Source: a virus. From it: 58,642 bases of DNA. The notes beneath the pieces were generated by a model. It had not been told where the DNA came from. It saw nothing but the letters and a program-made list of their open reading frames with translations, and searched no databases. The position numbers were made by a program, and so were the translations under genes. The stretch's first letter is position 1. Every line of letters starts with the position of its first letter. Of this stretch, positions 5,419 to 58,642 are shown in pieces. The stretch covers positions 1-58,642 of IMG/VR virus record IMGVR_UViG_3300034683_000065; one strand, given 5' to 3'.

Positions 5419-5970
5419 GTGGTAAGTGAAGAAAAAGTTAATATTTCTGCGAGTAGGTGTAGAAAAAATTACAACAAGGGTGACAGGGCTAATGATTACC
5501 TTGAGTACTACACGCTTCAAGAACTTCTTAAAGACCTGAAGATTATGTTCCCCAACATCCCGATAAGCGAACTTCGCAGACTTGTGAGAGCTATCTTCTG
5601 GATTTTTACTGAGTGTTTTGCTCAAGGAATGAACGTACGTATTCACAACTTCGGTCGGTTCTTGGTAAAGGATCTTCCTGCGCCCAACAGAGTGTTTGAC
5701 TTCTGGAACGGTGGTGACTTGCCTAATCCTCCGACACGTCGTAAAAGTGTTTCGTTCGAACCAGGCCACAGAATGCGTCACGTTATAAGTCCTACGGACA
5801 GTACTTACATTAGTGACTGCGGAAGGTACAATCACGAGTGGAACAGAAAGGTTAAGGCAATACACGAGCGCATAGGCAATGCTCTGTACCAGGCTCCGTA
5901 CGATAAGTTTGGAAACTACCTTGGTTACACAGATGAATTCGCGGAGTACTTGACAAAAGATTTTATATAG
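5419..5970 (+). CDS. HU/IHF-like DNA-binding protein
   Basis: A 183-aa protein starting at GTG behind AGGGAGGA (5403-5410). The central region follows the bacterial HU/IHF plan: a helical dimerisation segment (ELRRLVRAIFWIFTECFAQG), then VRIHNFGRFLVKD, which matches the conserved V-x-I/L-x-G/N-F-G-x-F turn, a variable beta-arm with Pro and Arg, and a closing FEPGHRMRHVI strand and helix. It is about twice the length of HU because of a C-terminal extension of some 70 residues. It is the only gene driven rightward from the divergent promoter and may bend DNA at the adjacent repeat-rich region. Confidence 0.75.
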   Translation: MVSEEKVNISASRCRKNYNKGDRANDYLEYYTLQELLKDLKIMFPNIPISELRRLVRAIFWIFTECFAQGMNVRIHNFGRFLVKDLPAPNRVFDFWNGGDLPNPPTRRKSVSFEPGHRMRHVISPTDSTYISDCGRYNHEWNRKVKAIHERIGNALYQAPYDKFGNYLGYTDEFAEYLTKDFI

Positions 5971-6233: not shown

Positions 6234-7240
6234 CTTAGGAATACCTATAAGTAAATACGAAGTAAGTACTTATAGATACTTCTAAAGTAAATAACCATCC
6301 TTACCTGGTTCTCTTAAGACTACTCGAAGTACCTAAGGGACACGAATAGTACCTAAGCCCTCTAGAATTCTAAAAATATACGCGCGATGTAGGTGACATC
6401 ACAGGGGGTAGGGGCCACTCTGTGTCCCACGGTACCCCTCGAACCACCCCCCCCTATGGGAAAATTCGGAGCTGTGTGGTCTGGATAGAGCCACTCCAGA
6501 TAGCCTCAATTCCGATTAGATTAATCTAGTACGCTTCAATCCTAGTATCCTTCAATCCGAGAACGCTCCAATAGGATACAAGTTAATCACGATTGCCCTA
6601 CTCCGCTTCCGTTTCCGCTTCCGGTTCGCTCGCTTGCCTTGTGTATTATGCGCTATCCGTTATGCCTTCCTACCTTTCTTCCTTCCTGCCTAACTACCTG
6701 ATATCACTGGATATCTTTCTTTTAGTAATCCTTCATGTTTCCTTTGTAACATGCTGTAATCCTTGAGCTAATTTAAGTTTTTCGTTTTAAGGCACGATAT
6801 GCCACAAGATGACCTGCGGTATGCCTTGGTGCTTTACGTGCCCTACAGGTCAATGTCGTGCGTTCTATGGGGTCTTGTGTGCTCGCTCAACATGTCATTC
6901 CTTTTTGGTAGGATATGGTTTTTCTCTTGTGCTACATTGGTACTTTGCTACTGCGACAACGTGATGTTGCTTTGTGTTACTTTGCTACTACAGTCGCACT
7001 ACAGTCGCGTTGCATTGCAAGTTGCATTGGCGCTAATTCACGTTGCTTTGCGTTGCGTTGTTTTTGCGTTTCTTGTGTTTGCTTGGCATGATACTTGCCT
7101 TTACGCGCGCATGTGCGCACCACATATGAACGTAGGTCTTGTGACGTGACGTGTTGAATTACTTCACTTTTCGCGTTTGGTGCTTGTGACGTGTTGATTT
7201 TACTTGATAAAAATCTTTTTCGGTTTTCTTGAAAAATTGT
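6234..7240. other. Gene-free, repeat-rich control region (candidate origin)
   Basis: About 1 kb without a convincing gene between the HU-like gene and the main early promoter. It holds CCTAAGG/CCTAAG words at about 6192, 6201, 6332 and 6352, an eight-C run near 6447, and GATATC-ACTG-GATATC at 6700-6715. CTyCAAT words place CAAT at 6537, 6553 and 6569, exactly 16 bp apart, with a related copy at 6507. Pyrimidine-rich stretches (6598-6700) and a TTGC-rich stretch (6950-7080) follow. The composition shifts from AT-rich to mixed. Its position at the divergence point next to an HU-like gene makes it the best candidate for a replication origin. Confidence 0.5.
7138..7207 (+). repeat. Direct repeat upstream of the early promoter
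   Basis: Two related copies, 7138-7164 and 7183-7207, share CTTGTGACGTG and then GTGTTGA followed by a T/A-rich TTACTT. The second copy ends about 33 bp before the -35 box at 7241. The placement suits an activator or repressor site (inference). Confidence 0.5.
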
Positions 7241-7268
7241 TTGACATCAACCTGCAATCTGGTATTGT
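7241..7268 (+). promoter_or_regulatory. Main early promoter (sigma70-like)
   Basis: TTGACA at 7241-7246, a 16-bp spacer and TATTGT at 7263-7268. The -35 is a perfect consensus and AT-rich DNA lies just upstream, like an UP element. It stands 58 bp before the first gene of the rightward early region. Confidence 0.75.
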
Positions 7269-7325
7269 TGCCTTGAACGTAGCATAACGATACGTTCCAC
7301 ATACTACCTACTTGAGAGGTTCGCT

Positions 7326-7829
7326 ATGTCCGTGGATACTGCACGTGCGCTGCGTGACGCCGAAGGTCGCAATGCTACCAGATTGCTTGGCAACGTCGAA
7401 CCTATCGACCTGCCTGTTGGCTGTAATGCCGGAACCATGCGCGAAGTTCCACCTATGGTGCTCGAAGTCTTGAAGCGAGACGTACGGGCGCAACTGGATG
7501 TGCTCAAGGCGTCTGGAGTGTCATGTCGTGAACGTAACAGGCTGTCAAAAAGCTTGTTACGTCTTGCCGTCGAACGATGGCATGAAGGTCGCAAGCGTGA
7601 CGCTTACAAGTTGCGCGCCAAGAAAGCGGGTGAAACCCGCAGCATCAAAGCGGCGAACAGACCGCGCGCAAAAAGCGAACATGGCACCGAAGCACCGCTT
7701 GAAGCGTTCGCTTCAGCTAGGCATAAACCTTGCCCGAAGAAAGCAAAGGGTTTGATAGGTTTGGCGGTCAAAGCGAGCGAAAAAAGTCAAGCACCGCAGG
7801 TAGTTGTCAGAAAAGCGAAAAAAGATTAA
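7326..7829 (+). CDS. First early protein, basic, unknown
   Basis: A 167-aa protein with GAGAGG 9 bp before the ATG. Residues 1-90 look folded, with mixed helix; the remainder is strongly basic (Lys, Arg, Ala) and probably disordered. No known domain is recognised. As the first gene behind a near-consensus promoter it is expected to be made immediately after infection, and a basic early protein suits binding to nucleic acid or to host RNA polymerase. That role is only inference. Confidence 0.75.
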   Translation: MSVDTARALRDAEGRNATRLLGNVEPIDLPVGCNAGTMREVPPMVLEVLKRDVRAQLDVLKASGVSCRERNRLSKSLLRLAVERWHEGRKRDAYKLRAKKAGETRSIKAANRPRAKSEHGTEAPLEAFASARHKPCPKKAKGLIGLAVKASEKSQAPQVVVRKAKKD

Positions 7830-7836
7830 AAATCAC

Positions 7837-7866
7837 TTGACCGCTTGCCGCGAATCACGCTATAAA
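7837..7866 (+). promoter_or_regulatory. Promoter of the large structured RNA
   Basis: TTGACC at 7837-7842, an 18-bp spacer and TATAAA at 7861-7866. A start about 7 bp downstream falls at 7873, exactly where the 5' strand of a 14-bp long-range helix begins. That agreement raises confidence that this is the RNA's own promoter. Confidence 0.65.
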
Positions 7867-7872
7867 GGATTT

Positions 7873-8609
7873 GTGGCAAGCAACGGAAGACCGACATAAG
7901 GTCGGTACTCCGCCACAAGTGACAAGAGGCCGTCCGTTTCCGGATGGACGCACGAACACCGCGCCAGCATTGGGCGTACCGACGTAGCATGACGTCACGT
8001 CACGCAAAAGCACATAACGCTTTGCAGTATGCCCTTGCGCCATGACGCACCAAACATTTTAACCGGATTGCTCACGTTCCGTCGTGAGAATTAGTTATCC
8101 CCGCGCAAGCCACAAGGCACACAAAGCCGTCGCTTGCTACCTCAAAGACGCCGATACGTTCACGGACGTTCGGCACGACGTGAGGTGAAGCAACGCAACG
8201 TAAAGCGCAAGACGACGTGACAACGCCGACCGCCCTTTTCTTTGTGTGACAGTGTATCGCTTGTCAATGACGTTCTTCACGGAGAACGGAGACAACGCGA
8301 CACCGAATCCAACTTGTGGAGACCAGCGCAAGGCAGGAAGTTAGGTAAAAAGCCCAGTACCGACGCCATGAAGACCGACCGCCGATTGTTTCACGCGAAA
8401 CATTCAACGCGCAAGCCCAGTAATGGTTAATGCCAGTCGGGAAGACCTGATAAAAGCTAACTCCTGCTACTAGGGGCAACTATGGCATACGAAAAATGCT
8501 ATGTTGTGCCGACGGGGTAAAAATCCGGCTCACTTGTCACAAATTGCTTATTTCACAGAAGAGGCTTCCCTACCGAAAGCTAATAGCTAGTACGTAGGGA
8601 AGCCTTTTT
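7873..8609 (+). ncRNA. Large structured non-coding RNA candidate (about 735 nt)
   Basis: No convincing frame covers this stretch, yet base-pairing is dense. The 5' end (7873-7886) pairs with 8127-8140 over 14 positions, with one G-U and one mismatch. Inside lie hairpins ACCGAC/GTCGGT (7890-7906), CGTCCGT/ATGGACG (7931-7950), a helix GGGCGTAC/GTATGCCC (7972-7979 with 8027-8034) enclosing GACGT/ACGTC and GCAAAAGC/GCTTTGC, and CTCACG/CGTGAG (8071-8088). The 3' part has CGTTCT/AGAACG (8271-8288), TGTTTC/GAAACA (8387-8402) and ATGGCAT/ATGCTAT near 8482-8502. A promoter precedes it and an intrinsic terminator ends it. It may belong to the giant ornate RNA classes (GOLLD- or ROOL-like in scale), but I recognise no family signature. 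Confidence 0.65.
8562..8609 (+). terminator. Strong intrinsic terminator
   Basis: AGGCTTCCCTAC (8562-8573) and GTAGGGAAGCCT (8594-8605) form a perfect 12-bp stem around a 20-nt loop, followed by a T-run. It ends the large RNA and separates it from the next gene. Confidence 0.9.
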
Positions 8610-8667
8610 ACATTGAAATTGGCAATGGAAGTTTCACATGAAACAATCAGCAAATGAGGTTAATACC

Positions 8668-9234
8668 ATGTCGAAGTTTACGCGCAACACTCTCATCGAA
8701 GTCGGCAACATGGACTCGGCAATCATCGACTACAGGAATAGCTTTCTTGACGTGAAGACTGACGGCCATGTCATTCTGTTGTCATGCCTGTATCATGGAA
8801 TGCCAGCCAATCTTGAGACGGGAGCAGACGGCAAGTCCTTGAAGAACCCCGGCAACGGTTCCTTCCTTAACAAGTTTCTCAAGGTCGTCGGCGAGTCGCA
8901 CCCCGCGTATGTTCCGCGCCTCAAGTCGTTCATCAAGGAAGTCGCGCCTTTCGAGGTTGACGGCGAGAAGGTCAGGTTCAAAGAGAAGACCTTCAGGGAC
9001 ATGGGCGGCGACCGCGACGTTATCTTCGGTCGCCTGAACGCCATCGCAGGGACGTGGTACGACCGGACGAAGGCCGAGAAGAAGGAAAAGGGACGCCCTG
9101 ACGTTGCCAAGAAGCTGGCAAGCCTCGTCAAGATTATCAAGGGCCTTGAGAACCTGTCCGAGCAGGAACAGGCCATCCTCACCGGCCTTCTCAAGATTGC
9201 CGAGATTGCCAAGGTCGAGCTGCCCAAGGAATAG
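8668..9234 (+). CDS. Early protein of unknown function
   Basis: A protein of 188 aa from the ATG at 8668, which has GAGG 8 bp upstream; an ATG at 8638 in the same frame would add 10 residues behind GGAA. It is soluble and Lys-rich, with a C-terminal helical part (KKLASLVKIIKGLENLSEQEQAILTGLL split by turns). GC-rich codon use suggests high expression. No domain is recognised. The upstream start overlaps a GTTTCACATGAAAC palindrome. Confidence 0.8.
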   Translation: MSKFTRNTLIEVGNMDSAIIDYRNSFLDVKTDGHVILLSCLYHGMPANLETGADGKSLKNPGNGSFLNKFLKVVGESHPAYVPRLKSFIKEVAPFEVDGEKVRFKEKTFRDMGGDRDVIFGRLNAIAGTWYDRTKAEKKEKGRPDVAKKLASLVKIIKGLENLSEQEQAILTGLLKIAEIAKVELPKE

Positions 9235-9253
9235 CCGCCTTGTGGGCCACATA

Positions 9254-9303
9254 GCACCCGTCAAGTACCAAGTAGCTTGGCGGGTGCACTTGTGTTCTAC
9301 AAC
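9254..9303 (+). promoter_or_regulatory. Hairpin plus -10 box unit, copy 1
   Basis: GCACCCGTCAAG (9254-9265) pairs with CTTGGCGGGTGC (9276-9287) over 12 bp with one G-U. TTGGCG (9277-9282) in the 3' arm is followed after 15 bp by TACAAC (9298-9303). The unit could stop upstream transcription or stabilise the upstream 3' end, and start a new message 25 bp before the next ATG. Confidence 0.6.
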
Positions 9304-9828: not shown

Positions 9829-9852
9829 ACGCTCATCGGTAGGCCACCCAGA

Positions 9853-9896
9853 AGCCATCAGCTAGCAAGTTGGTGGCTTTTATTGTGCCCTACAAT
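9853..9896 (+). promoter_or_regulatory. Hairpin plus -10 box unit, copy 3
   Basis: AGCCATCA (9853-9860) pairs with TGGTGGCT (9871-9878) with one G-U and is followed by TTTATT. TTGGTG (9870-9875), 15 bp, TACAAT (9891-9896). The best match to the shared pattern TTGGYG-N15-TACAAY. Confidence 0.6.
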
Positions 9897-10169: not shown

Positions 10170-10206
10170 TGGCCATGCCTGCAATAGTAGGAGTGTAGGA
10201 CGCCTA

Positions 10207-10252
10207 GCACACGTCAGGCAAGAACTTGGCGGGTGCGCTTGTGTTCTACAAT
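10207..10252 (+). promoter_or_regulatory. Hairpin plus -10 box unit, copy 4
   Basis: GCACACGTCAGG (10207-10218) pairs with CTTGGCGGGTGC (10225-10236), with G-U pairs and one mismatch. TTGGCG (10226-10231), 15 bp, TACAAT (10247-10252). The 3' arm is nearly identical to copy 1, so the two probably arose by duplication. Confidence 0.6.
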
Positions 10253-10722: not shown

Positions 10723-10753
10723 CAAGAACATCGTCGTCGTGTACGACCTCTAG
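10715..10753 (+). CDS. 12-aa micro-ORF with a perfect Shine-Dalgarno site
   Basis: ATG-to-TAG frame encoding MANKNIVVVYDL. AAGGAGGT ends about 10 bp upstream, inside the end of the previous gene, whose stop it overlaps. Its first residues resemble the start of that gene (MAK-LIVVRF), so it may be a truncated duplicate, a leader peptide or a true micro-protein. Too short to judge by composition. Confidence 0.4.
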   Translation: MANKNIVVVYDL

Positions 10754-10759
10754 CCACAC

Positions 10760-10821
10760 AGAACCCATCTCCTAGGTGACAGCAGTGAGGTGGGTTCTAT
10801 TGTGTTTAGAAACGCTAGAAT
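10760..10821 (+). promoter_or_regulatory. Diverged hairpin unit, copy 5
   Basis: AGAACCCATCTC (10760-10771) pairs with GAGGTGGGTTCT (10787-10798) over 12 bp with one G-U. The downstream bases align with the other units but the -10 box is altered; TAGAAT at 10816-10821 could serve instead, 22 bp before the next start. Confidence 0.5.
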
Positions 10822-14168: not shown

Positions 14169-14187
14169 CACTGGGCCTAGCCTACTA

Positions 14188-14213
14188 GGGGTGGGCACTA
14201 CGGTGCTCGCCCC
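14188..14213 (+). terminator. Intergenic hairpin
   Basis: GGGGTGGGCAC (14188-14198) pairs with GTGCTCGCCCC (14203-14213) over 11 bp with two G-U. There is no T-run, so it is an mRNA-end stabiliser or weak terminator. Confidence 0.5.
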
Positions 14214-14256
14214 AATGGAGGCTAGTAATACGGAGAACACCACGAAGGAGGATACT

Positions 14257-14730: not shown

Positions 14731-14741
14731 GTGTTGTCACA

Positions 14742-15413
14742 GGTGGGGCGATAGCTTCTGCTGTCGTCCTACCCATTGGCAACGCGTGCTCACTTGCTGT
14801 AAAGCACACGTGCTGTGTGGAATTACTATTAGCCAGGCAGGGAAACCTGTACACGTCTGCACCAAGAGGGTCTGGTCAAGTGGCTACCAGCTTGGACAGT
14901 TTCGCTAAAGCTAAGCGGGGCTGCCGCCAAGGTAACAGCACTATAAACTCAACAGGTGTAGAGGTAGGGGAAGGCACCCAGGTGACGAAGCACAAGCGCC
15001 GCCCAGCAATAGCTTAGCCGTGTTGACCGTTCGTTATTGGCGTTGGTTGACAGCTCATCGAAAACACAAAGGCTTAGTGTCGGTGAGGGGAAAGGTGAAC
15101 TCCTGTGTCCCTAAGACCGTAGGTGTGTGCGAGGAAGACTTGACACACGTAAGAACTTGATCCGCGATGCCTTTAACTGCTGCCAACCACAAGGCGAAGA
15201 GAGCTTGGTCGTTAGTTCAGAGCCAGCACAATTGGGTTAGTACTGCAAAGTATCTTCAGGAACTACGTGTTCCCTTGCACTGCGGTGCTCGGCGCACAGC
15301 TACGTTGGGACTACAATGTACCTAGTGCTCGAAGATTTTGAGGAGGGTTGCCCTCGCTTTGCCAAAGGCCAGTAGCTGGCCAGGAATCTGGGCTCGACTT
15401 GCAGGCCGCTGCA
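14742..15413 (+). ncRNA. Second large structured non-coding RNA candidate (about 670 nt)
   Basis: No credible gene covers this stretch. It opens with a 13-bp hairpin rich in G-U pairs (14742-14754 with 14761-14773). GNRA hairpins follow, TGCT-GTAA-AGCA (14795-14806) and CAGG-GAAA-CCTG (14838-14849), then GTCAAG/CTTGGAC, CGCT/AGCG and GCTG/CAGC (14875-14939), CAATAGC/GTTATTG (15007-15039) and GTGTGT/ACACAC (15123-15148). The 3' part has six consecutive perfect hairpins: 15259-15273, 15277-15288 (TGCG loop), 15301-15320 (one G-U), 15343-15355, 15367-15381 and 15400-15413. No terminator follows, so it may be processed from the operon message. Scale and style fit giant ornate phage RNAs; the family is not identified. 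Confidence 0.6.
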
Positions 15414-15479
15414 CAAGTTCTCACAAGTTGTCTCTTTCTATCTCACGTAAAGGTTCAAGCATCTGGAGGTGTGACTATC

Positions 15480-15932
15480 ATGGTAAGAACTCAGTTCAGG
15501 CACCACGCCCTCGGCATGTGGGTGCCGTTAATGCTCACTGCTGCCGGGCTGCTCCTTCCGCTCGTAGCGTGCCGTATGTTCGGTTGGATTTGGGTGTCGG
15601 CTCTGCCAATTACCGGAGTCATAGCCTACACATGGTGGGCATGTCGAGCCGTAGAGTTCGACTATGCTTTCCGTGCCTTGAACCGGCACGAGTACCCGCT
15701 GTATCCACCCGCAGTCTGGACAACAATGCGGTTGGTCAAACTGTACAGCGGCACGAGGAGCCGATTGTATGTGCTTGAGAAAGCTGCTGACGCTGCTCGA
15801 AGAAGAGCAGCCACCGTAACTGGCTGCGTTGAGACGTTAGCCTTGGAAGCAGGATACAAACGGATGACCGGTCTTGACTGGCTCAAGGCCCAGTTCATTC
15901 CTGCACACCAAGACATAAACGCTCAACGATAG
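15480..15932 (+). CDS. Membrane protein, two spans
   Basis: A 150-aa protein starting at ATG 15480 behind TGGAGGTG. Longer frames run back into the structured RNA and are rejected. Two hydrophobic segments (about 12-32 and 36-54) form a hairpin in the membrane, followed by a basic cytoplasmic helix. Function unknown; inner-membrane modification or exclusion is possible. Confidence 0.7.
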   Translation: MVRTQFRHHALGMWVPLMLTAAGLLLPLVACRMFGWIWVSALPITGVIAYTWWACRAVEFDYAFRALNRHEYPLYPPAVWTTMRLVKLYSGTRSRLYVLEKAADAARRRAATVTGCVETLALEAGYKRMTGLDWLKAQFIPAHQDINAQR

Positions 15933-15947
15933 GAACTTTCAACAGAG

Positions 15948-15979
15948 CTGGGAACCGAGGGCACTTGGTTCCCAGTTTT
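15948..15979 (+). terminator. Intergenic terminator hairpin
   Basis: CTGGGAACCGAG (15948-15959) pairs with CTTGGTTCCCAG (15964-15975) over 12 bp with one G-U and is followed by TTTT. Confidence 0.75.
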
Positions 15980-15996
15980 ACATGGAGGTTGCGACC

Positions 15997-18309: not shown

Positions 18310-18326
18310 CACACGCTGCCAACAAC

Positions 18327-18356
18327 AAGGGCGGGGTCGAAAGGCTCCGCCCTTTT
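18327..18356 (+). terminator. Intrinsic terminator
   Basis: AAGGGCGGGGTC (18327-18338) pairs with GCTCCGCCCTT (18344-18354) and is followed by TT; a GC-rich stem with a G-U pair and a GAAA-type loop. Confidence 0.8.
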
Positions 18357-18374
18357 CTGCTAAAAGGAATGCGA

Positions 18375-19313: not shown

Positions 19314-19334
19314 TTCCAAAAAAGGTCAAAGGTT

Positions 19335-19378
19335 CAAGGGGTGTTACGCTCTTCTGAGGGTACACCCCTTGTCTTTTT
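19335..19378 (+). terminator. Intrinsic terminator closing the early small-gene region
   Basis: CAAGGGGTGT (19335-19344) pairs with ACACCCCTTG (19362-19371), a perfect 10-bp stem, followed by TCTTTTT. Confidence 0.9.
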
Positions 19379-19477
19379 AGGACGGCTAGTCGGTCCGCGA
19401 GAACAAAGCTACCGACGTAGTACCTTATACTTCTGGTGCAGGCTACCAAACCCACCAAGAAAAGGAAGGTTAGTGAC

Positions 19478-37269: not shown

Positions 37270-37344
37270 TTTGATTCTAAGGCACGTTTACAGGGAAACC
37301 TGCCTAGAGTATGGGTGGAAATGTAGCGTGCCTTAGAAGTCAAA
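37270..37344 (+). ncRNA. Structured RNA element near the right-arm end
   Basis: TTTGA-TTCTAAGGCACG (37270-37286) pairs with CGTGCCTTAGAA-G-TCAAA (37327-37344), 17 bp with one bulge. Inside is CAGG-GAAA-CCTG (37291-37302), a 12-base word also found in the large RNA at 14838. A terminator follows 32 bp later. Probably a small RNA or a 3'-end element. Confidence 0.6.
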
Positions 37345-37375
37345 ATCCTACACACAATAAAAGAGAAGCCTGGGT

Positions 37376-37410
37376 ACGAAAGTATCTGGGCTTTTCTTTT
37401 AGTTTACTTT
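37376..37410 (+). terminator. Intrinsic terminator with a GAAA loop
   Basis: AAGCCTGGGTAC (37376-37387), loop GAAA, GTATCTGGGCTT (37392-37403): 12 bp with three G-U pairs, then TTCTTTTAG. Confidence 0.85.
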
Positions 37411-38345: not shown

Positions 38346-41300
38346 TTAGTACCTCACACCAGCAGACTCAGCTGCTTTGATCATGCGCTTCATGTGCATC
38401 TCCTTTTGCTGTTGCAACATCCGCTTACGGACGTTGTACTCTTCTGAGTAGATGCTGTGCTTGATCGCCAAGTCTGTCTCGGCCTTACGTATCTTAGTCA
38501 AGGCAGTCTCAACTCTCTTGAGATCTTGTTCTGCTTTAAGTGCAGACATAGACCTAGCCCGTATCTCTGCGAGCTCCTTGCCTCTGACTCCTTCCTTGTA
38601 CGCCAGATTATATTCCCCAGCAGAAGCCATGACTTCTTTCTTCACTTTACTGTAGAGCTGCTGCGTGTCAGACGCACCAACCTCACCAATAAAGCGCTTA
38701 AGAACAGGAGACTTAGTGTACTCGAACTCTCGTCCGGGAGTGAGCGCCATGTCGATAGCCTTGTAGGAATCCCACACAACTCGACCAACACCACCAGTGT
38801 ACGAAAGCAACGTGTGCTCTATAGTCTCTGGAGAAATATCTACGTATCCAGACTTAGTCTTCGACCCGCCGGTAACAGAGTTAAGAGCCTCAGCAAACGC
38901 TCTGAGCACAGGGTCAGCTGTACCCCAGAACTTCTGGCTGTCTGGCTTGTCCTTTGCACCTTCAGGTACTATGGGCTGCCCAGCAAAGTTACGGTTAGTA
39001 GCTATCTGGAACATAGGCCTGAAGATCGTAGGCACAAGTGCAGTCCAACCCTCGTCAGCCCCACCAACAAAACTGAAGGCGTCAAAGAAAGTCTTGACAG
39101 AACTGACAGCAGCCTCAACAGGTTTCTTACGACCGTTGATGACTTGGTCAAATGCGTCGCTTGTTGCCCAGAACATGTGGTAACCAAGAGCCATGGGGAT
39201 CTTGATGTAGCCACCGTCAGAAAACGGAGACGGAAGGATCAAGTTCTGAGACCTAACGTAGTCAGGTATCTTGTCGTACTTGTTAACTCCGTCATCGTCG
39301 TCACCCATGACAGCTCGGCACAGTGCTGCGAGAGCCATCTGCCCTGCCATGAATCCACCCAAGTACTTAGCGACACGCTTGACGTTCTGTTCACGAGTAG
39401 AAGTAGGGCGAACAATGTTCTGCATCATTCGAATGTTACCAGCAATAGACGCGCTGCTAAACATGTAGAGTGCGTTCATCACAGGAGCCCAGGCCCCCTT
39501 CTTCGTGAAGTTAACCGTGAGGTTAAGTGCAACGTTACCAGCTCTGTCTTGTGCTACTTCTGGAGACATGCCGTGTTTACGGTAAACACTGTACATATTC
39601 TTGAAGACGCTAAGGCGAGTCATGTTCTCAAGGATGTCGCTGAGCGTGTGCAAGTAAGTACCAGCTGTGATTACAAGGTCGCGTGCTGCGTGAGGCTGTC
39701 GAGCCATCTTGCGCAGACGCGTGTACGTGTCTTCAAAGTTAGCGAGGCCGTACATAGAAGTCTCAGCTCCGCTGTCCTTGTACAACTTAATAGCGTTGTA
39801 CCACCCAGCCTCTTCTTCGTTACGAGGGGCAAGTCCTTTACCTTCCCGCCACAAAGCCTTAAAGGCTGGCACAAGATCCTTAGCAAGCTGCGGTCTGATC
39901 TTCTTGATATCCGCTGCGAACTCTTGCTTGTGCTCTTCAATCACGCTGCCGAGGTTAAGCAGCGCAGTCTGTACGTCTCGAATGGGGTTACCCAAGATAA
40001 ACGGAAGAGACAGCGTAGTGCTTGCCTTAGCCATCATCTGCGTAAACACACCCATCTGCCTGATAGCAGGGCCAGCGATGAGCAGGTTCTCATCTTTAAG
40101 GCCTCGAGCAAGTTCTTTGTCAAAGATAGCAACACGAACACGTGAACCGTCTTCGTCGATTATCGTGACAACTGGCACGTCAGTACCAGAGAACTCGTGC
40201 TTAGCTTTCCTGAATACAAGTTCACCTTCTCCAGTGCTGGTGACTTTGTACTTAGGCTTTTCAGAGTCTATAACCTTCCACAGATCTGGTGCTGGGTTGT
40301 CCTTGATGAGGTTCAGCAAGGATCTGCCAACTACAGTACGCTCACCCATACGGATAGCGTCTTCGTACTGAACGATCGTGTGAATGATCGGATTCTGCGG
40401 AAGAGTGTCGCGACCCTTAGCGCGCTTAGACGGAACCCACTCACCGACGCTGATGCCAGCGCGAGCGTGCTCTGCTGCGTACCCAGGGTCTATCTGCTTA
40501 ATAGCTTCGTCCCAATTCTTGAGCGGAACGTAGTACTTGTACGTCTGCTCCCACTGATCAATAACATCCTTGTCAAACAAGTTGTACTGACGCAGCAGTT
40601 CAAGGCGAGCCGTGTTCAAGTACTTCAGCACACGAACAACTCCCTCCATGTTGGGGTCGCCTTCGTACTTACGAATAGTTTCGTGAGCTTCGGCGTCTGT
40701 CCAACCAGATGGTGCTTCCATGTACTTAAGCATGTCTTGCGTAATGTTCTTGTGAGGCATATTCTTGATCCGCTCTCTGAGCACAGCGTTACGCTCAAGC
40801 GCGTGAAGCGCAGTAGCGTAGTCAGCGGCAGCAGCAAGAGCTTTCTCAAAAGAACCAAACTTAGGAACAAGTTTGTTAACAAAGTACATCAACGATCCCT
40901 TAGTGTTGGGGTCGATGAACTCCTTCTGGATTTCTCCAATCCGACTAGATACTTTGTTACTCATCATCTCGTGCTTACGATACGCGTTGGTGTGCGGAGT
41001 GATCTTTCCACCTTGCTTAATCAAAGCACGCTGCACAACTTGCAGCCTTCTCAACTTATCCCCAAACTTTTCAAGCAGCCAGTCGACAGAGCTGTGACGA
41101 CGAACCTTGCCGTCAGGAGTCACCACCTGCCCAGCTTTGATGACGTCTTCAACAACCTTGCCAACCTTGTCTATGAGACTAAGTCGGTTGTCTTCTCGAA
41201 TCTGCTCAGCCTCAAGGAACGTGCGCGGGCCTGTGGTAGCACTCTCTGGAAGTGAGTACAGAAGAGCATTTACTTTAGACTTGTACTCAGCACTATTCTT

Positions 41301-44300
41301 ATCTTGTGCTAGGTGCAAAGCGCTGGCTTGGAGTATAGTGTAGATGTCGTCTTCAGTAAGCTTACGTACACCAAGCTTATTAAGAACTTGTTTGATAAAG
41401 TTCTTGACCTTTGCGAGCACAGACTTCTCGTCTGCGTCTAGCAGCTGCTTAACTTTCTTTCGTTCCGCAACTCTAGCCACGAACTCTTCGGCCTGGCTCA
41501 GAGGATCAAGAGACGAGTAGTACTCGTTCTTTCCTATGTGGCTGGCCCACGCTTTAGAGTCTTTAAACGAGTCGTACACAAGCTTAAGAAAATGTTCTCT
41601 CTGTCTGTCAGTAAACAGCGAGCGAAGTCCGTAGTGGACAACACCTTCGTGCACAACAGCCCGTACGGCCTGCTCTTTCGAAGTTATGTTCGGAGCGAAC
41701 AGTAGAATTTTTCCGTCGACAAATGCGGCTACAGCGCCCTTCTGGTACCGTGCGAGAATGTCCTGGTTCGAAATAACTTCTACTTTGTCAGCAAGTACAG
41801 GGAGTTGGCTAAGCGTGTTTTTAATCCACGCTGTTACTTTCTTTGCAGAGTCGACAGCCTCTTTTGTTGTGCCGACTTGCTCACGTGCCTGAGCTTGTGT
41901 CTGAGCTTTGACTACGTCTACTTCTCTTGCAAGATTACTTGTGTGAACTGTACCGGTCTCAGGCACAGGCATAGTACCTTGCTGGACAGTGCCAGTAGCT
42001 TGCTCTTGTGTGGGCACCAAAGACCTGCGGTGCAGCTGGTACCCTGGAACGAATTCACCTTCCGGCATTCGTCCGAGCGCAGCAGCTTCTTCAAATTGTT
42101 GACGTTCAGCCTGATCCCACCACGCAGCAAGCTCAGCTTCTTGCGCTTGCTTTTCTTGCTCTCGTGCGTTAGCCAAGTCACGAGCAGCCTCGTACTGAGT
42201 TTGGTGGAACACCATGTTACGTTCTACTGGCTGAGGTACAACAGCAGGTGCTGCCGGTACAGCCTCAGCTACGTCGGTAACCTTGGGAGGAAACACCAAC
42301 ATGTCTCTGTTGTACATACTGGCACCGAACGCTTCTTCTTGTGCTCTGGTGTTGGCTTCGTCGAACTGCTGAGCTTTGGCTCTTGCTGCGGCTATGTCGT
42401 TAGCGATCTTGTCTCTAACTTTGTTAGCTTCTTGCACAGCCTCTTGCTCGTACAGACGTGCGTACTCGGCAGCTTCTGCCTTGTTCTCTGCCTGTGCACC
42501 AAGGGTAGCCCAGTATTCTTTACCACCACCGAAGAACTGTTTCAGTCTTTCTTGACGTTCTCTGCGCTTGTTGTTCTGCTCTTCTTGCCTGATGCTCTCA
42601 CGAGTGTGTGCTGCACGCAGCTCGTTAGCTGCTGCGGCAATGTGCGCCTGTTCTTGCAGCTTGTTCGGCAGCGCGGTGTCGGGTGTTAGATTAGCAAGGA
42701 GATCGTCGCCAGTCTTTTCTGCTCTCTTTCGAAGTTCCTGAAGACTAACTTCGGGCGCTCCTCTGAGGATGGCATCTATGTCAGATGCTGCTGAGCCTAT
42801 GCCGTACAGAGAGTTAAGAGCCTTGTCCAGCTTCCACTGTTCGCCAACCTTGTTGTTAGCGATAAGCCTAACAGCCTTGTCACCCTGCTCAAAGATATTG
42901 TCAACTCTGTTCTGCTCAGCAGTAAGTGCGTTCTTGTAAGTAGAAAGTCTGTCTGCAAGAATACTTACTGTTGCGCGGCTCAGCGTCGGGTCAGACATCT
43001 TGGCTTCGAGCTCTGTGATAGCTGCCCTAAGCTTGCCTTGAATCTGAGTAGAGATGTCAGACTGCCTATTAACAAACGTCTGTACATCCTTAGCCTGGTC
43101 TACAAGTCTCTTATATACTTCAGGAGACTGAGGTGGAGCAGTTGCTTCAGATTCTGCACGCTTCTCTCTGGCCTTCTGTACTTTCTTTTCTGCTGTGGTA
43201 GTAGCTTTCTCTACTTGCTTCTTAGCCAAAGCTTGCGCATGCTCAAGATTCTTCTGTGCCTTTGCAAGCTGACCAGTGACTTGTGCGAGTGCATCCTTGG
43301 CCTGCCCACGAACCTGTGGATCCGACCCAGGATTTCCAAGAACAGTAAGCAGATGGGCACGCTGCCTAGAAAGCTGCTGCACCAGTCCAGCGTACTTCTG
43401 TTGTGTCTCTGCAAGCTTAGAACCAATGCTGTCAACAGTCATAGAGACAGCAGTCTTACCTATCTCAGTAGCAGCTTCTACATTACCAGCAGCCACAGCT
43501 GCTTCTTTGATAATGTCTTCTGCGTTGAACTGAGGTTTGGTAGACAACGACGGATCGTTGCTTTCTGCCGTGTTCTTTTCTGCTGTCTTAAGACGATCTA
43601 CTACTGTGGACACTGGGGCAAAGCCAAGACCACCAATAGCACCAGCAGCTGCGCTGTTGATGATATCCCAGTAGTCATCTGGAGTAATCCAAGCTCGGCT
43701 GTCCTGAATGTTTGCGTTGGCTGAAGCTACGGCTTCCTGAATACCTTCAGTAAAACCTTCCTGCAGCATAACCTTGGGCAGGTCTCGTACGAGTGCGCTC
43801 CTGAAAGATCTTTCAACTTCTCGCGCGACAGGAACGCCTGTGACCTTCCGAAGGATTGAACCTTCAGCACCCATGACAACGTCAACCATTGCGCTAGCAA
43901 GACCAAACGCAGCGTCTTGGATCGGCCTGGTATTTTCAATGCCGTGGGTTTCCACATCTCGTGCGTACATCCCACCAGCTTCTTGAGACCACATGGCACC
44001 AGTAACACCAAGTGTTGCACCAAGCCTAGACGCAACTGCCTTAGTCGCCGTCTCACGCGCAAGCTCAGCACTAAGGCCTTGCTTGATGAGGGACTGCTCT
44101 GCTGCTGCAATCGCAGACTTAGCTCCGTTGGCTACTACTGTACCAAGCACACGCTTGCCTACAAAACTACCAACTCCACCAGTACCAAGAGACAGCATAG
44201 CCTGTGGAAGCAAAGACCCAAGTGTGTGAGCTCCCCACTGAGCGGCAGTCTCAAAAGACTCGATATCACGTATGTCGCCTACCTTACCAGCATAAGGTGA

Positions 44301-44588
44301 GGCTTCTTCCATGTTTCTAAGATACCCCTCGTAACCAAAGTCGCGAAGAGAATCAATTCCTGCTATGTCACCAGCAAGTCCAACAGACCCATAGCCAAGG
44401 GCTTGCATCTGCTGCTTACCGTACTCCCACCCCTTGCCAAACTCTGACATACCAGCAGCAGGATCAACAGGTGCTGGTGTAGGAATAGCAGAGTACGCAT
44501 CTTGAATGTTGTACGAAGATCCGCCCCCGAATGGCCTTACTGGCCCACCGAAGGGATTAATCATAGTACCAGCGCTATCCGGCGTCAT
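38346..44588 (-). CDS. Giant internal virion (ejection) protein with polyvalent-protein domains
   Basis: A 2080-aa protein, the largest of the phage. Residues 1-360 are Gly/Ala-rich with hydrophobic segments; 360-950 is a long Gln/Glu/Ala coiled-coil stretch; near 978 VVHEGVVHYGLR has an HExxxH-type motif as in polyvalent proteins; 1100-2080 is a helical region with FILGNPIRDVQTALLNLG and FVGG segments resembling the large-polyvalent-protein domain LPD38. In podoviruses such proteins are stored in the head and ejected to form a channel through the envelope; the peptidase-like motif suggests wall or protein cleavage. Confidence 0.85.
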   Translation of the reverse strand: MTPDSAGTMINPFGGPVRPFGGGSSYNIQDAYSAIPTPAPVDPAAGMSEFGKGWEYGKQQMQALGYGSVGLAGDIAGIDSLRDFGYEGYLRNMEEASPYAGKVGDIRDIESFETAAQWGAHTLGSLLPQAMLSLGTGGVGSFVGKRVLGTVVANGAKSAIAAAEQSLIKQGLSAELARETATKAVASRLGATLGVTGAMWSQEAGGMYARDVETHGIENTRPIQDAAFGLASAMVDVVMGAEGSILRKVTGVPVAREVERSFRSALVRDLPKVMLQEGFTEGIQEAVASANANIQDSRAWITPDDYWDIINSAAAGAIGGLGFAPVSTVVDRLKTAEKNTAESNDPSLSTKPQFNAEDIIKEAAVAAGNVEAATEIGKTAVSMTVDSIGSKLAETQQKYAGLVQQLSRQRAHLLTVLGNPGSDPQVRGQAKDALAQVTGQLAKAQKNLEHAQALAKKQVEKATTTAEKKVQKAREKRAESEATAPPQSPEVYKRLVDQAKDVQTFVNRQSDISTQIQGKLRAAITELEAKMSDPTLSRATVSILADRLSTYKNALTAEQNRVDNIFEQGDKAVRLIANNKVGEQWKLDKALNSLYGIGSAASDIDAILRGAPEVSLQELRKRAEKTGDDLLANLTPDTALPNKLQEQAHIAAAANELRAAHTRESIRQEEQNNKRRERQERLKQFFGGGKEYWATLGAQAENKAEAAEYARLYEQEAVQEANKVRDKIANDIAAARAKAQQFDEANTRAQEEAFGASMYNRDMLVFPPKVTDVAEAVPAAPAVVPQPVERNMVFHQTQYEAARDLANAREQEKQAQEAELAAWWDQAERQQFEEAAALGRMPEGEFVPGYQLHRRSLVPTQEQATGTVQQGTMPVPETGTVHTSNLAREVDVVKAQTQAQAREQVGTTKEAVDSAKKVTAWIKNTLSQLPVLADKVEVISNQDILARYQKGAVAAFVDGKILLFAPNITSKEQAVRAVVHEGVVHYGLRSLFTDRQREHFLKLVYDSFKDSKAWASHIGKNEYYSSLDPLSQAEEFVARVAERKKVKQLLDADEKSVLAKVKNFIKQVLNKLGVRKLTEDDIYTILQASALHLAQDKNSAEYKSKVNALLYSLPESATTGPRTFLEAEQIREDNRLSLIDKVGKVVEDVIKAGQVVTPDGKVRRHSSVDWLLEKFGDKLRRLQVVQRALIKQGGKITPHTNAYRKHEMMSNKVSSRIGEIQKEFIDPNTKGSLMYFVNKLVPKFGSFEKALAAAADYATALHALERNAVLRERIKNMPHKNITQDMLKYMEAPSGWTDAEAHETIRKYEGDPNMEGVVRVLKYLNTARLELLRQYNLFDKDVIDQWEQTYKYYVPLKNWDEAIKQIDPGYAAEHARAGISVGEWVPSKRAKGRDTLPQNPIIHTIVQYEDAIRMGERTVVGRSLLNLIKDNPAPDLWKVIDSEKPKYKVTSTGEGELVFRKAKHEFSGTDVPVVTIIDEDGSRVRVAIFDKELARGLKDENLLIAGPAIRQMGVFTQMMAKASTTLSLPFILGNPIRDVQTALLNLGSVIEEHKQEFAADIKKIRPQLAKDLVPAFKALWREGKGLAPRNEEEAGWYNAIKLYKDSGAETSMYGLANFEDTYTRLRKMARQPHAARDLVITAGTYLHTLSDILENMTRLSVFKNMYSVYRKHGMSPEVAQDRAGNVALNLTVNFTKKGAWAPVMNALYMFSSASIAGNIRMMQNIVRPTSTREQNVKRVAKYLGGFMAGQMALAALCRAVMGDDDDGVNKYDKIPDYVRSQNLILPSPFSDGGYIKIPMALGYHMFWATSDAFDQVINGRKKPVEAAVSSVKTFFDAFSFVGGADEGWTALVPTIFRPMFQIATNRNFAGQPIVPEGAKDKPDSQKFWGTADPVLRAFAEALNSVTGGSKTKSGYVDISPETIEHTLLSYTGGVGRVVWDSYKAIDMALTPGREFEYTKSPVLKRFIGEVGASDTQQLYSKVKKEVMASAGEYNLAYKEGVRGKELAEIRARSMSALKAEQDLKRVETALTKIRKAETDLAIKHSIYSEEYNVRKRMLQQQKEMHMKRMIKAAESAGVRY

Positions 44589-58027: not shown

Positions 58028-58642
58028 TTAAAAAGTACCTGCGCGGGCTCGCGCTTCGTACTCTTTGGCGTATGCGTCGAACGCTGCAGCAAAGTCGTCA
58101 GGGATTTCGTTAGACTTCTGCTCCTGCGGAGTGCTTTTCTTAGAAGGCACAGACAGTGCAGCAAGGACCTTCTTAACAATCGCGTCCTCGTCTGAGGGCT
58201 GATTCTTAGTCTGGGTCGGAGTCTTGGACGGAGAAGACTTACTTTGCGGTGCGTTGACGTTTTTGGTGCTCAAGTTCCTGGCTGCCTTGTAGTCGTTAAG
58301 AAGTGCGATCACTTGATCAGAGCTACCGCGCTCAGCGACGTACACTGCACCAGTCCGTGCTACAGGGGGAAGAGATTCTATCCACTGAAGCAGGTCGAAT
58401 CCGCCAACAATTTCGTCGAAGTCAGGGTGAGCGTTACGAATAGCGTTCAAGTGCGCGTTAGTTTCAGAAGTGTCGATGTGCGATTCGATAGGGCGAACAC
58501 GCTTATCTACCTCAGAAGTAACAGACTTCAGAGCTTTCTGAACCTGACGTTCAACGTACTCCTGCATCGGCTTAGCGAAGTCAGGAAACTCTTCCATGAG
58601 CTCCTTAAAAGAGTCAGGAAGATCGGGTTCGTCTGCAGCATC
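58028..58642 (-). CDS. Scaffolding protein, C-terminal part
   Basis: Continuation of the frame starting at 535 across the join. From MEEFPDFAKPM onward it is helical and charged, ending in an Arg/Ala-rich tail (DDFAAAFDAYAKEYEARARAGTF) that probably binds capsid protein. The part 58516-58642 repeats positions 1-127. Confidence 0.85.
   Translation of the reverse strand, partial: DAADEPDLPDSFKELMEEFPDFAKPMQEYVERQVQKALKSVTSEVDKRVRPIESHIDTSETNAHLNAIRNAHPDFDEIVGGFDLLQWIESLPPVARTGAVYVAERGSSDQVIALLNDYKAARNLSTKNVNAPQSKSSPSKTPTQTKNQPSDEDAIVKKVLAALSVPSKKSTPQEQKSNEIPDDFAAAFDAYAKEYEARARAGTF
58516..58642. repeat. Terminal direct repeat, copy 2 (circular-assembly overlap)
   Basis: Exact copy of positions 1-127. 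After removing one copy the circular genome is 58,515 bp. Confidence 0.95.

Follow-up and report, generated by a model that had tools for sequence, protein, structure and literature searches.

A structured noncoding segment between the first two rightward early genes of a podovirus-like phage: a possible early leader with an attenuator-like terminator

The early-arm locus and its genome

The window, meaning the whole stretch of 58,642 nucleotides analysed here, is an IMG/VR virus record (IMGVR_UViG_3300034683_000065) with a perfect 127-bp terminal repeat (1-127 and 58516-58642). The repeat makes it most likely that the record represents a circular genome of ~58.5 kb in its complete form. The leftward arm encodes a podovirus-type portal, terminase, internal virion proteins and head proteins, and the rightward arm encodes primase, DnaB, a family A polymerase, an exonuclease and a ligase. 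No near DNA match for the first 25 kb was found among the GenBank phages, and relatives of the polymerase share ~30% identity. The closest complete kin found, G003 (56.5 kb), is syntenic, with protein identities of 23-50%. A 2080-aa virion protein (38346-44588) matches in size and place a StenR_269 protein annotated as a putative virion-associated RNA polymerase; no match to solved structures was found for it.

The noncoding segment occupies the point where the two arms meet, with the first early ORF on its left and the next early gene on its right (Table 1). The first ORF has a weak codon signal with a G-rich first codon position, and a family search with its protein returned only a weak phrog_8366 hit (E 0.05). 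The next gene has a strong codon signal; no family match was found for its product. To the left of these genes, an HU/IHF-like gene (Pfam E 4e-4, just under the curated cut-off) adjoins an AT-rich junction with short tandem repeats (5419-5970 and 6234-7320). A comparable arrangement, which includes repeated GATTCTCA-type units, exists in G003, and this part of the window may therefore be the origin.

The initial annotation described the segment as free of any credible gene, and this is borne out. The longest stop-to-stop frame is 71 aa and every one of the six frames has a negative codon score, as against +0.13 to +0.50 for the neighbouring early genes, the scores having been trained on a hand-picked early-gene set. 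The segment of this single genome therefore has no protein-coding frame, as is expected of a structured noncoding RNA.

Table 1. Positions of genes, signals and predicted RNA elements at the early-arm junction
Feature	Position	Strand	Remarks
Promoter-like TTGACA-16-TATTGT	7241-7268	+	extended TG; upstream of first early gene
First early gene	7326-7829	+	167-aa basic ORF; ribosome site GAGAGG and ATG
Three-way junction	7833-7922	+	starts 4 nt past the stop codon of the first gene; outer stem 7833-7839/7916-7922; hairpin 7843-7856/7868-7881 (14 pairs, 2 G-U); hairpin 7884-7912
Promoter-like TTGACC-18-TATAAA	7837-7866	+	-10 box in loop of hairpin 7843-7881
5′ arm of long-range closing helix	7919-7926, with 8533-8540	+	GTGACAAG/CTTGTCAC; probability 0.96
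Noncoding interior	7919-8540	+	nested helices 8063-8069/8522-8528, 8095-8101/8514-8520, 8110-8116/8313-8319, 8118-8126/8240-8248, 8332-8344/8457-8468
parS-like 16-mer	8387-8402	+	TGTTTCACGCGAAACA; 1 mismatch; also an RNA hairpin
Local hairpin, 3′ part	8476-8507	+	
Terminator	8543-8626	+	84-nt hairpin; 16-bp core stem 8558-8573/8594-8609; T run
parS-like 16-mer	8630-8645	+	AGTTTCACATGAAACA; 2 mismatches; just upstream of next gene
Next early gene	8668-9234	+	188 aa; likely start ATG 8668; ribosome site GAGG

Predicted fold of the segment and its ends

Over its whole length the segment folds better than its shuffles (z -5.95 for 7873-8608 and -7.9 for 7833-8626), and much of this whole-length z of -6 to -8 comes from the ends. 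At the 5′ end, the three-way junction gives z -8.6 for 7825-7925 and -7.6 for 7833-7921. Its 14-pair hairpin (7843-7856/7868-7881) has a pairing probability of 1.0 and z -6.75, and spans the -10 box of the nearby promoter match.

A different 5′ structure had been proposed, namely a 14-bp long-range helix (7873-7886 with 8127-8140) beginning at the predicted first base, 7873. This helix fails, as only 13 of the 14 positions pair, one of them as G-U, the remaining position is an A-C mismatch, and the ensemble probability is zero. When the first nine of its pairs are imposed on the fold, the energy rises by 29 kcal/mol. Since the 5′ bases of the claimed helix pair locally within 7843-7881, the structured part starts upstream, at 7833. 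The proposed first base and the -10 box thus fall inside the structured element. The junction also lies downstream of the promoter match at 7241, so that transcripts started there would contain it.

The nested middle of the segment is closed by a long-range helix that cannot form together with the junction's outer stem; the two alternatives differ by 4 kcal/mol. For CAAGTGACAAG (7916-7926), two partners of almost the same energy are predicted, TCACTTG at 7833 and 8533-8540, and this alternative pairing could act as a switch. Neither pairing disrupts the terminator stem itself.

The interior presents two aspects. The MFE of its 619 nt (7922-8540) has z -3.7 and is equalled by 30% of the coding segments of this phage, so that ordinary coding RNA of the same genome is no less stable. 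The mean positional entropy, 0.51, is lower than in all 60 shuffles and all 52 equal-length coding segments; the fold is better defined than in all 112 controls. These figures bear on the plainest reading, which takes the segment for plain spacer, or for coding sequence that has decayed, with a fold due to chance and a normal terminator. The interior z lies inside the range of coding segments, phage coding RNA is well folded in any case, and another early noncoding gap of ~700 nt exists (14784-15470). Against this stand the absence of codon signal in every frame, the definition of the fold relative to its controls, the strong non-random elements at both ends and a length that is unusual in a phage. 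Plain spacer is given a low probability.

Local elements are stronger on the plus strand than on the minus strand (z -5.0 as against -2.0 for 8470-8512, and -4.7 on the minus strand for 7833-7921), which makes the plus strand the likely transcript. A minus-strand RNA was set aside on this ground, yet the whole-length z is equally strong on that strand. Two internal repeats, AAGCCCAGTA and GAAGACCGAC, each present twice, occur at near-chance levels.

At the 3′ end, the intrinsic terminator that had been proposed is real, with a stem longer than the 12 bp claimed: 16 bp within an 84-nt hairpin. The hairpin has z of about -8.5 to -8.7, and none of 200 shuffles reached it. Hairpins of at least 14 pairs number eight on the plus strand of the genome, compared with 0-1 in shuffles, and both 7843-7881 and 8558-8609 are among the eight.

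Hairpins with G-U pairs, some with T tails, follow most of the rightward early genes (9243-9299, 9841-9891, 10194-10250, 10750-10818, 14179-14223, 14733-14783, 15934-15990, 18314-18373 and 19316-19381), and several have a repeated CTACAAYTAAC-like tail. These may be RNase III sites, terminators or hairpin promoters. The segment looks like another slot in this hairpin-divided array of units, one that holds no ORF. A second early noncoding slot of ~700 nt (14784-15470) follows a 14-pair hairpin and precedes an ATG at 15480; its fold has z -2.8 and it gave no Rfam match. Near the end of the early arm, very strong tandem hairpins (37277-37401, one with 20 pairs) are among the best-folding plus-strand windows.

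Promoter matches, relatives and candidate functions

The promoter-like TTGACC-18-TATAAA reported for the segment is present and is one of five plus-strand positions in 58.6 kb that match at least 10 of 12 bases (~4 expected). It is missing from a stricter promoter scan because its -10 box lacks the usually conserved last T. Four of the five matches cluster at 5.3-7.9 kb and the next is at 28.2 kb, with no plus-strand match of this quality from 7.84 to 28.2 kb. Because of this gap, the genes past the terminator seem to need read-through, barring weaker or phage-specific promoters.

The segment is probably either a leader open to switching or an early noncoding RNA. The reading best supported, and offered tentatively, is that the segment is a structured early leader whose attenuator-like terminator gates the early operon. 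The layout of such a leader is found here in order: a promoter-like site at 7837-7866, a leader at 7833-8540, a terminator at 8543-8626 and an ATG at 8668. We infer that host RNA polymerase would start at the clustered promoter matches (7241 and 7837) and transcribe a noncoding leader of ~740-790 nt to the right. This RNA would fold into the 5′ three-way junction, the nested middle closed by 7919-7926/8533-8540 and the strong intrinsic terminator, placed just ahead of the next early gene and its ribosome site. The leader would most likely work as a cis-acting attenuator, with the majority of transcripts ending by default near 8609 and giving an early, abundant short RNA. Read-through would feed the 30-kb early operon, and its level would change when 7916-7926 switches partner or when a factor binds.

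As the terminator precedes the ribosome site and no good promoter match follows for 20 kb, a leader with attenuator accounts for the layout no less well than a free ornate RNA does. Several points count against the leader. A length of 700 nt is well above what a leader usually requires, and the next gene could be transcribed directly from a weak promoter-like site at 8619. As most early genes here are followed by a hairpin, the two end hairpins may be generic features of intergenic DNA. The ordinary MFE of the interior and the unremarkable structure of the first 600 nt in G003 count on the same side. If transcribed, the segment would rank with the larger noncoding RNAs for a phage genome below 60 kb, and its position could allow it to gate the whole early operon.

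The main rival is that the segment specifies a free, trans-acting early noncoding RNA of ~700-790 nt. It might be cut by RNase III at the flanking hairpins and might represent a new ornate-type class that functions as GOLLD or ROOL do. The slot is gene-like and bounded by hairpins (7843-7881 and 8558-8609), as are other early genes; the nested fold is well defined, the segment has a promoter match of its own, and G003 has a similar slot. However, the 5′ hairpin covers the supposed start, the stability of the interior is ordinary, no tRNA island lies nearby, and searches for families and homologues yielded neither a match nor covariation. This reading is considered unlikely, if less so than plain spacer or control at the DNA level.

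The family searches agree with the initial annotation in recognising no known family: Rfam covariance models gave chance hits only, at the gathering score and at E 10. At the gathering score the window gave no GOLLD or ROOL hit, nor did 7820-8640 when the limit was relaxed to E <= 10, and the 58.6-kb window holds no tRNA genes. The proposed resemblance to these giant ornate RNAs is not upheld, considering the missing Rfam match and tRNA island, the ordinary interior stability and the failure of the long helix.

Homologues were sought by several routes. The segment has no DNA similarity in phages, plasmids or 25 kin records, and anchoring on the neighbouring proteins did not bring up any relatives. 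Kin were reached through terminase and polymerase; the closest two (L003 and L007) are short contigs that end short of the region. Two single-sequence covariance models returned nothing, one of the 5′ element over the kin loci and 38 records, the other of 8331-8512 over the kin loci. Of two motif scans of IMG/VR, the first matched only G003, the source of that motif, and the second matched nothing. Without a homologue by DNA, neighbour protein, covariance model or motif scan, a new RNA class cannot be claimed. Missing homologues in the collections searched argue little against their existence. The segment stands as a well-bounded candidate and does not constitute evidence of a new class of giant RNA.

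Sequence sharing with G003 is suggestive only, homology of the two noncoding segments being unproven. If the two contig ends of G003 are joined, as was assumed, its layout is similar. Two promoter matches, TTGACA-17-TATATT and TTGACA-17-TTTACT, occur where its first early gene ends and just beyond; after them come ~0.9 kb of noncoding DNA, a terminator-type hairpin of 23 bp and a gene preceded by a ribosome site. The first 600 nt of its noncoding segment are not unusually structured (z -1.7). The two segments share 25 8-mers against 10.7 +/- 4.5, a level that ~0.7% of other segments reach and that an unrelated pair nearly matches. A collinear motif in the two has p of about 0.001 to 0.08, depending on the setting. 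One further reading, regarded as doubtful, is that a podovirus-like lineage (the window and G003) has a new class of large structured RNA at a fixed position, after the first early gene and before the second. Its sequence would evolve fast, while the long terminator hairpin and a short TCCTGCTA...GGGCAACTA..GGCAT motif upstream of it would be kept.

The segment may instead work at the level of DNA, as an origin or as partition or operator DNA by the early promoters, with a ParB-like protein on both parS-like sites and the RNA fold as a by-product. The two parS-like 16-mers (compared with TGTTTCACGTGAAACA) lie 243 bp apart, flank the terminator and are the sole sites of the genome at that level, with 0.04 expected. 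They might bind host ParB or serve as operators for a regulator encoded by the phage. The HU/IHF-like gene and the repeat-bearing AT-rich junction adjoin, the inverted repeats fold on the minus strand too, and in some mycobacteriophages a noncoding RNA close to parABS serves replication (PMC7157519). On the other side, the G-U pairs in hairpin 7843-7881 and the stronger plus-strand z-scores favour RNA, and the GC-skew minimum lies elsewhere, at ~57 kb. No ParA or ParB was found in the proteins scanned, and G003 is without parS-like sites. DNA-level control is improbable, ranking with plain spacer after the free trans-acting RNA, and the attenuator leader stays the preferred reading.

Comparison with known systems

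Extrachromosomal mycobacteriophage prophages have RNA-based origins with a noncoding RNA (PMC7157519). The resemblance is one of setting, a noncoding RNA region of ~600 bp beside parS-type sites in a phage. In the present phage no parA or parB was found in the proteins scanned.

ROOL and GOLLD are often found near tRNA islands, which is their usual but not invariable setting (PMC12286853). The segment is like them in its size range, phage setting, noncoding nature and many predicted helices. It differs in having no match to their Rfam models at E 10, no tRNA genes near and no demonstrated conserved core or covariation. A further hallmark of GOLLD and ROOL is a homo-oligomeric cage whose intermolecular contacts covary.

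In phage T7, the intergenic hairpins of the early operon are cut by RNase III. The present phage likewise has a hairpin after most early genes, including 7843-7881 after the first, although these are predicted hairpins and some have terminator-type T tails.

The put RNA of HK022 is an early phage leader RNA that controls terminator read-through. It is about ten times shorter than the segment and carries no terminator of its own. The two are alike in layout, both combining an early promoter, a structured RNA and a strong terminator ahead of the next early gene.
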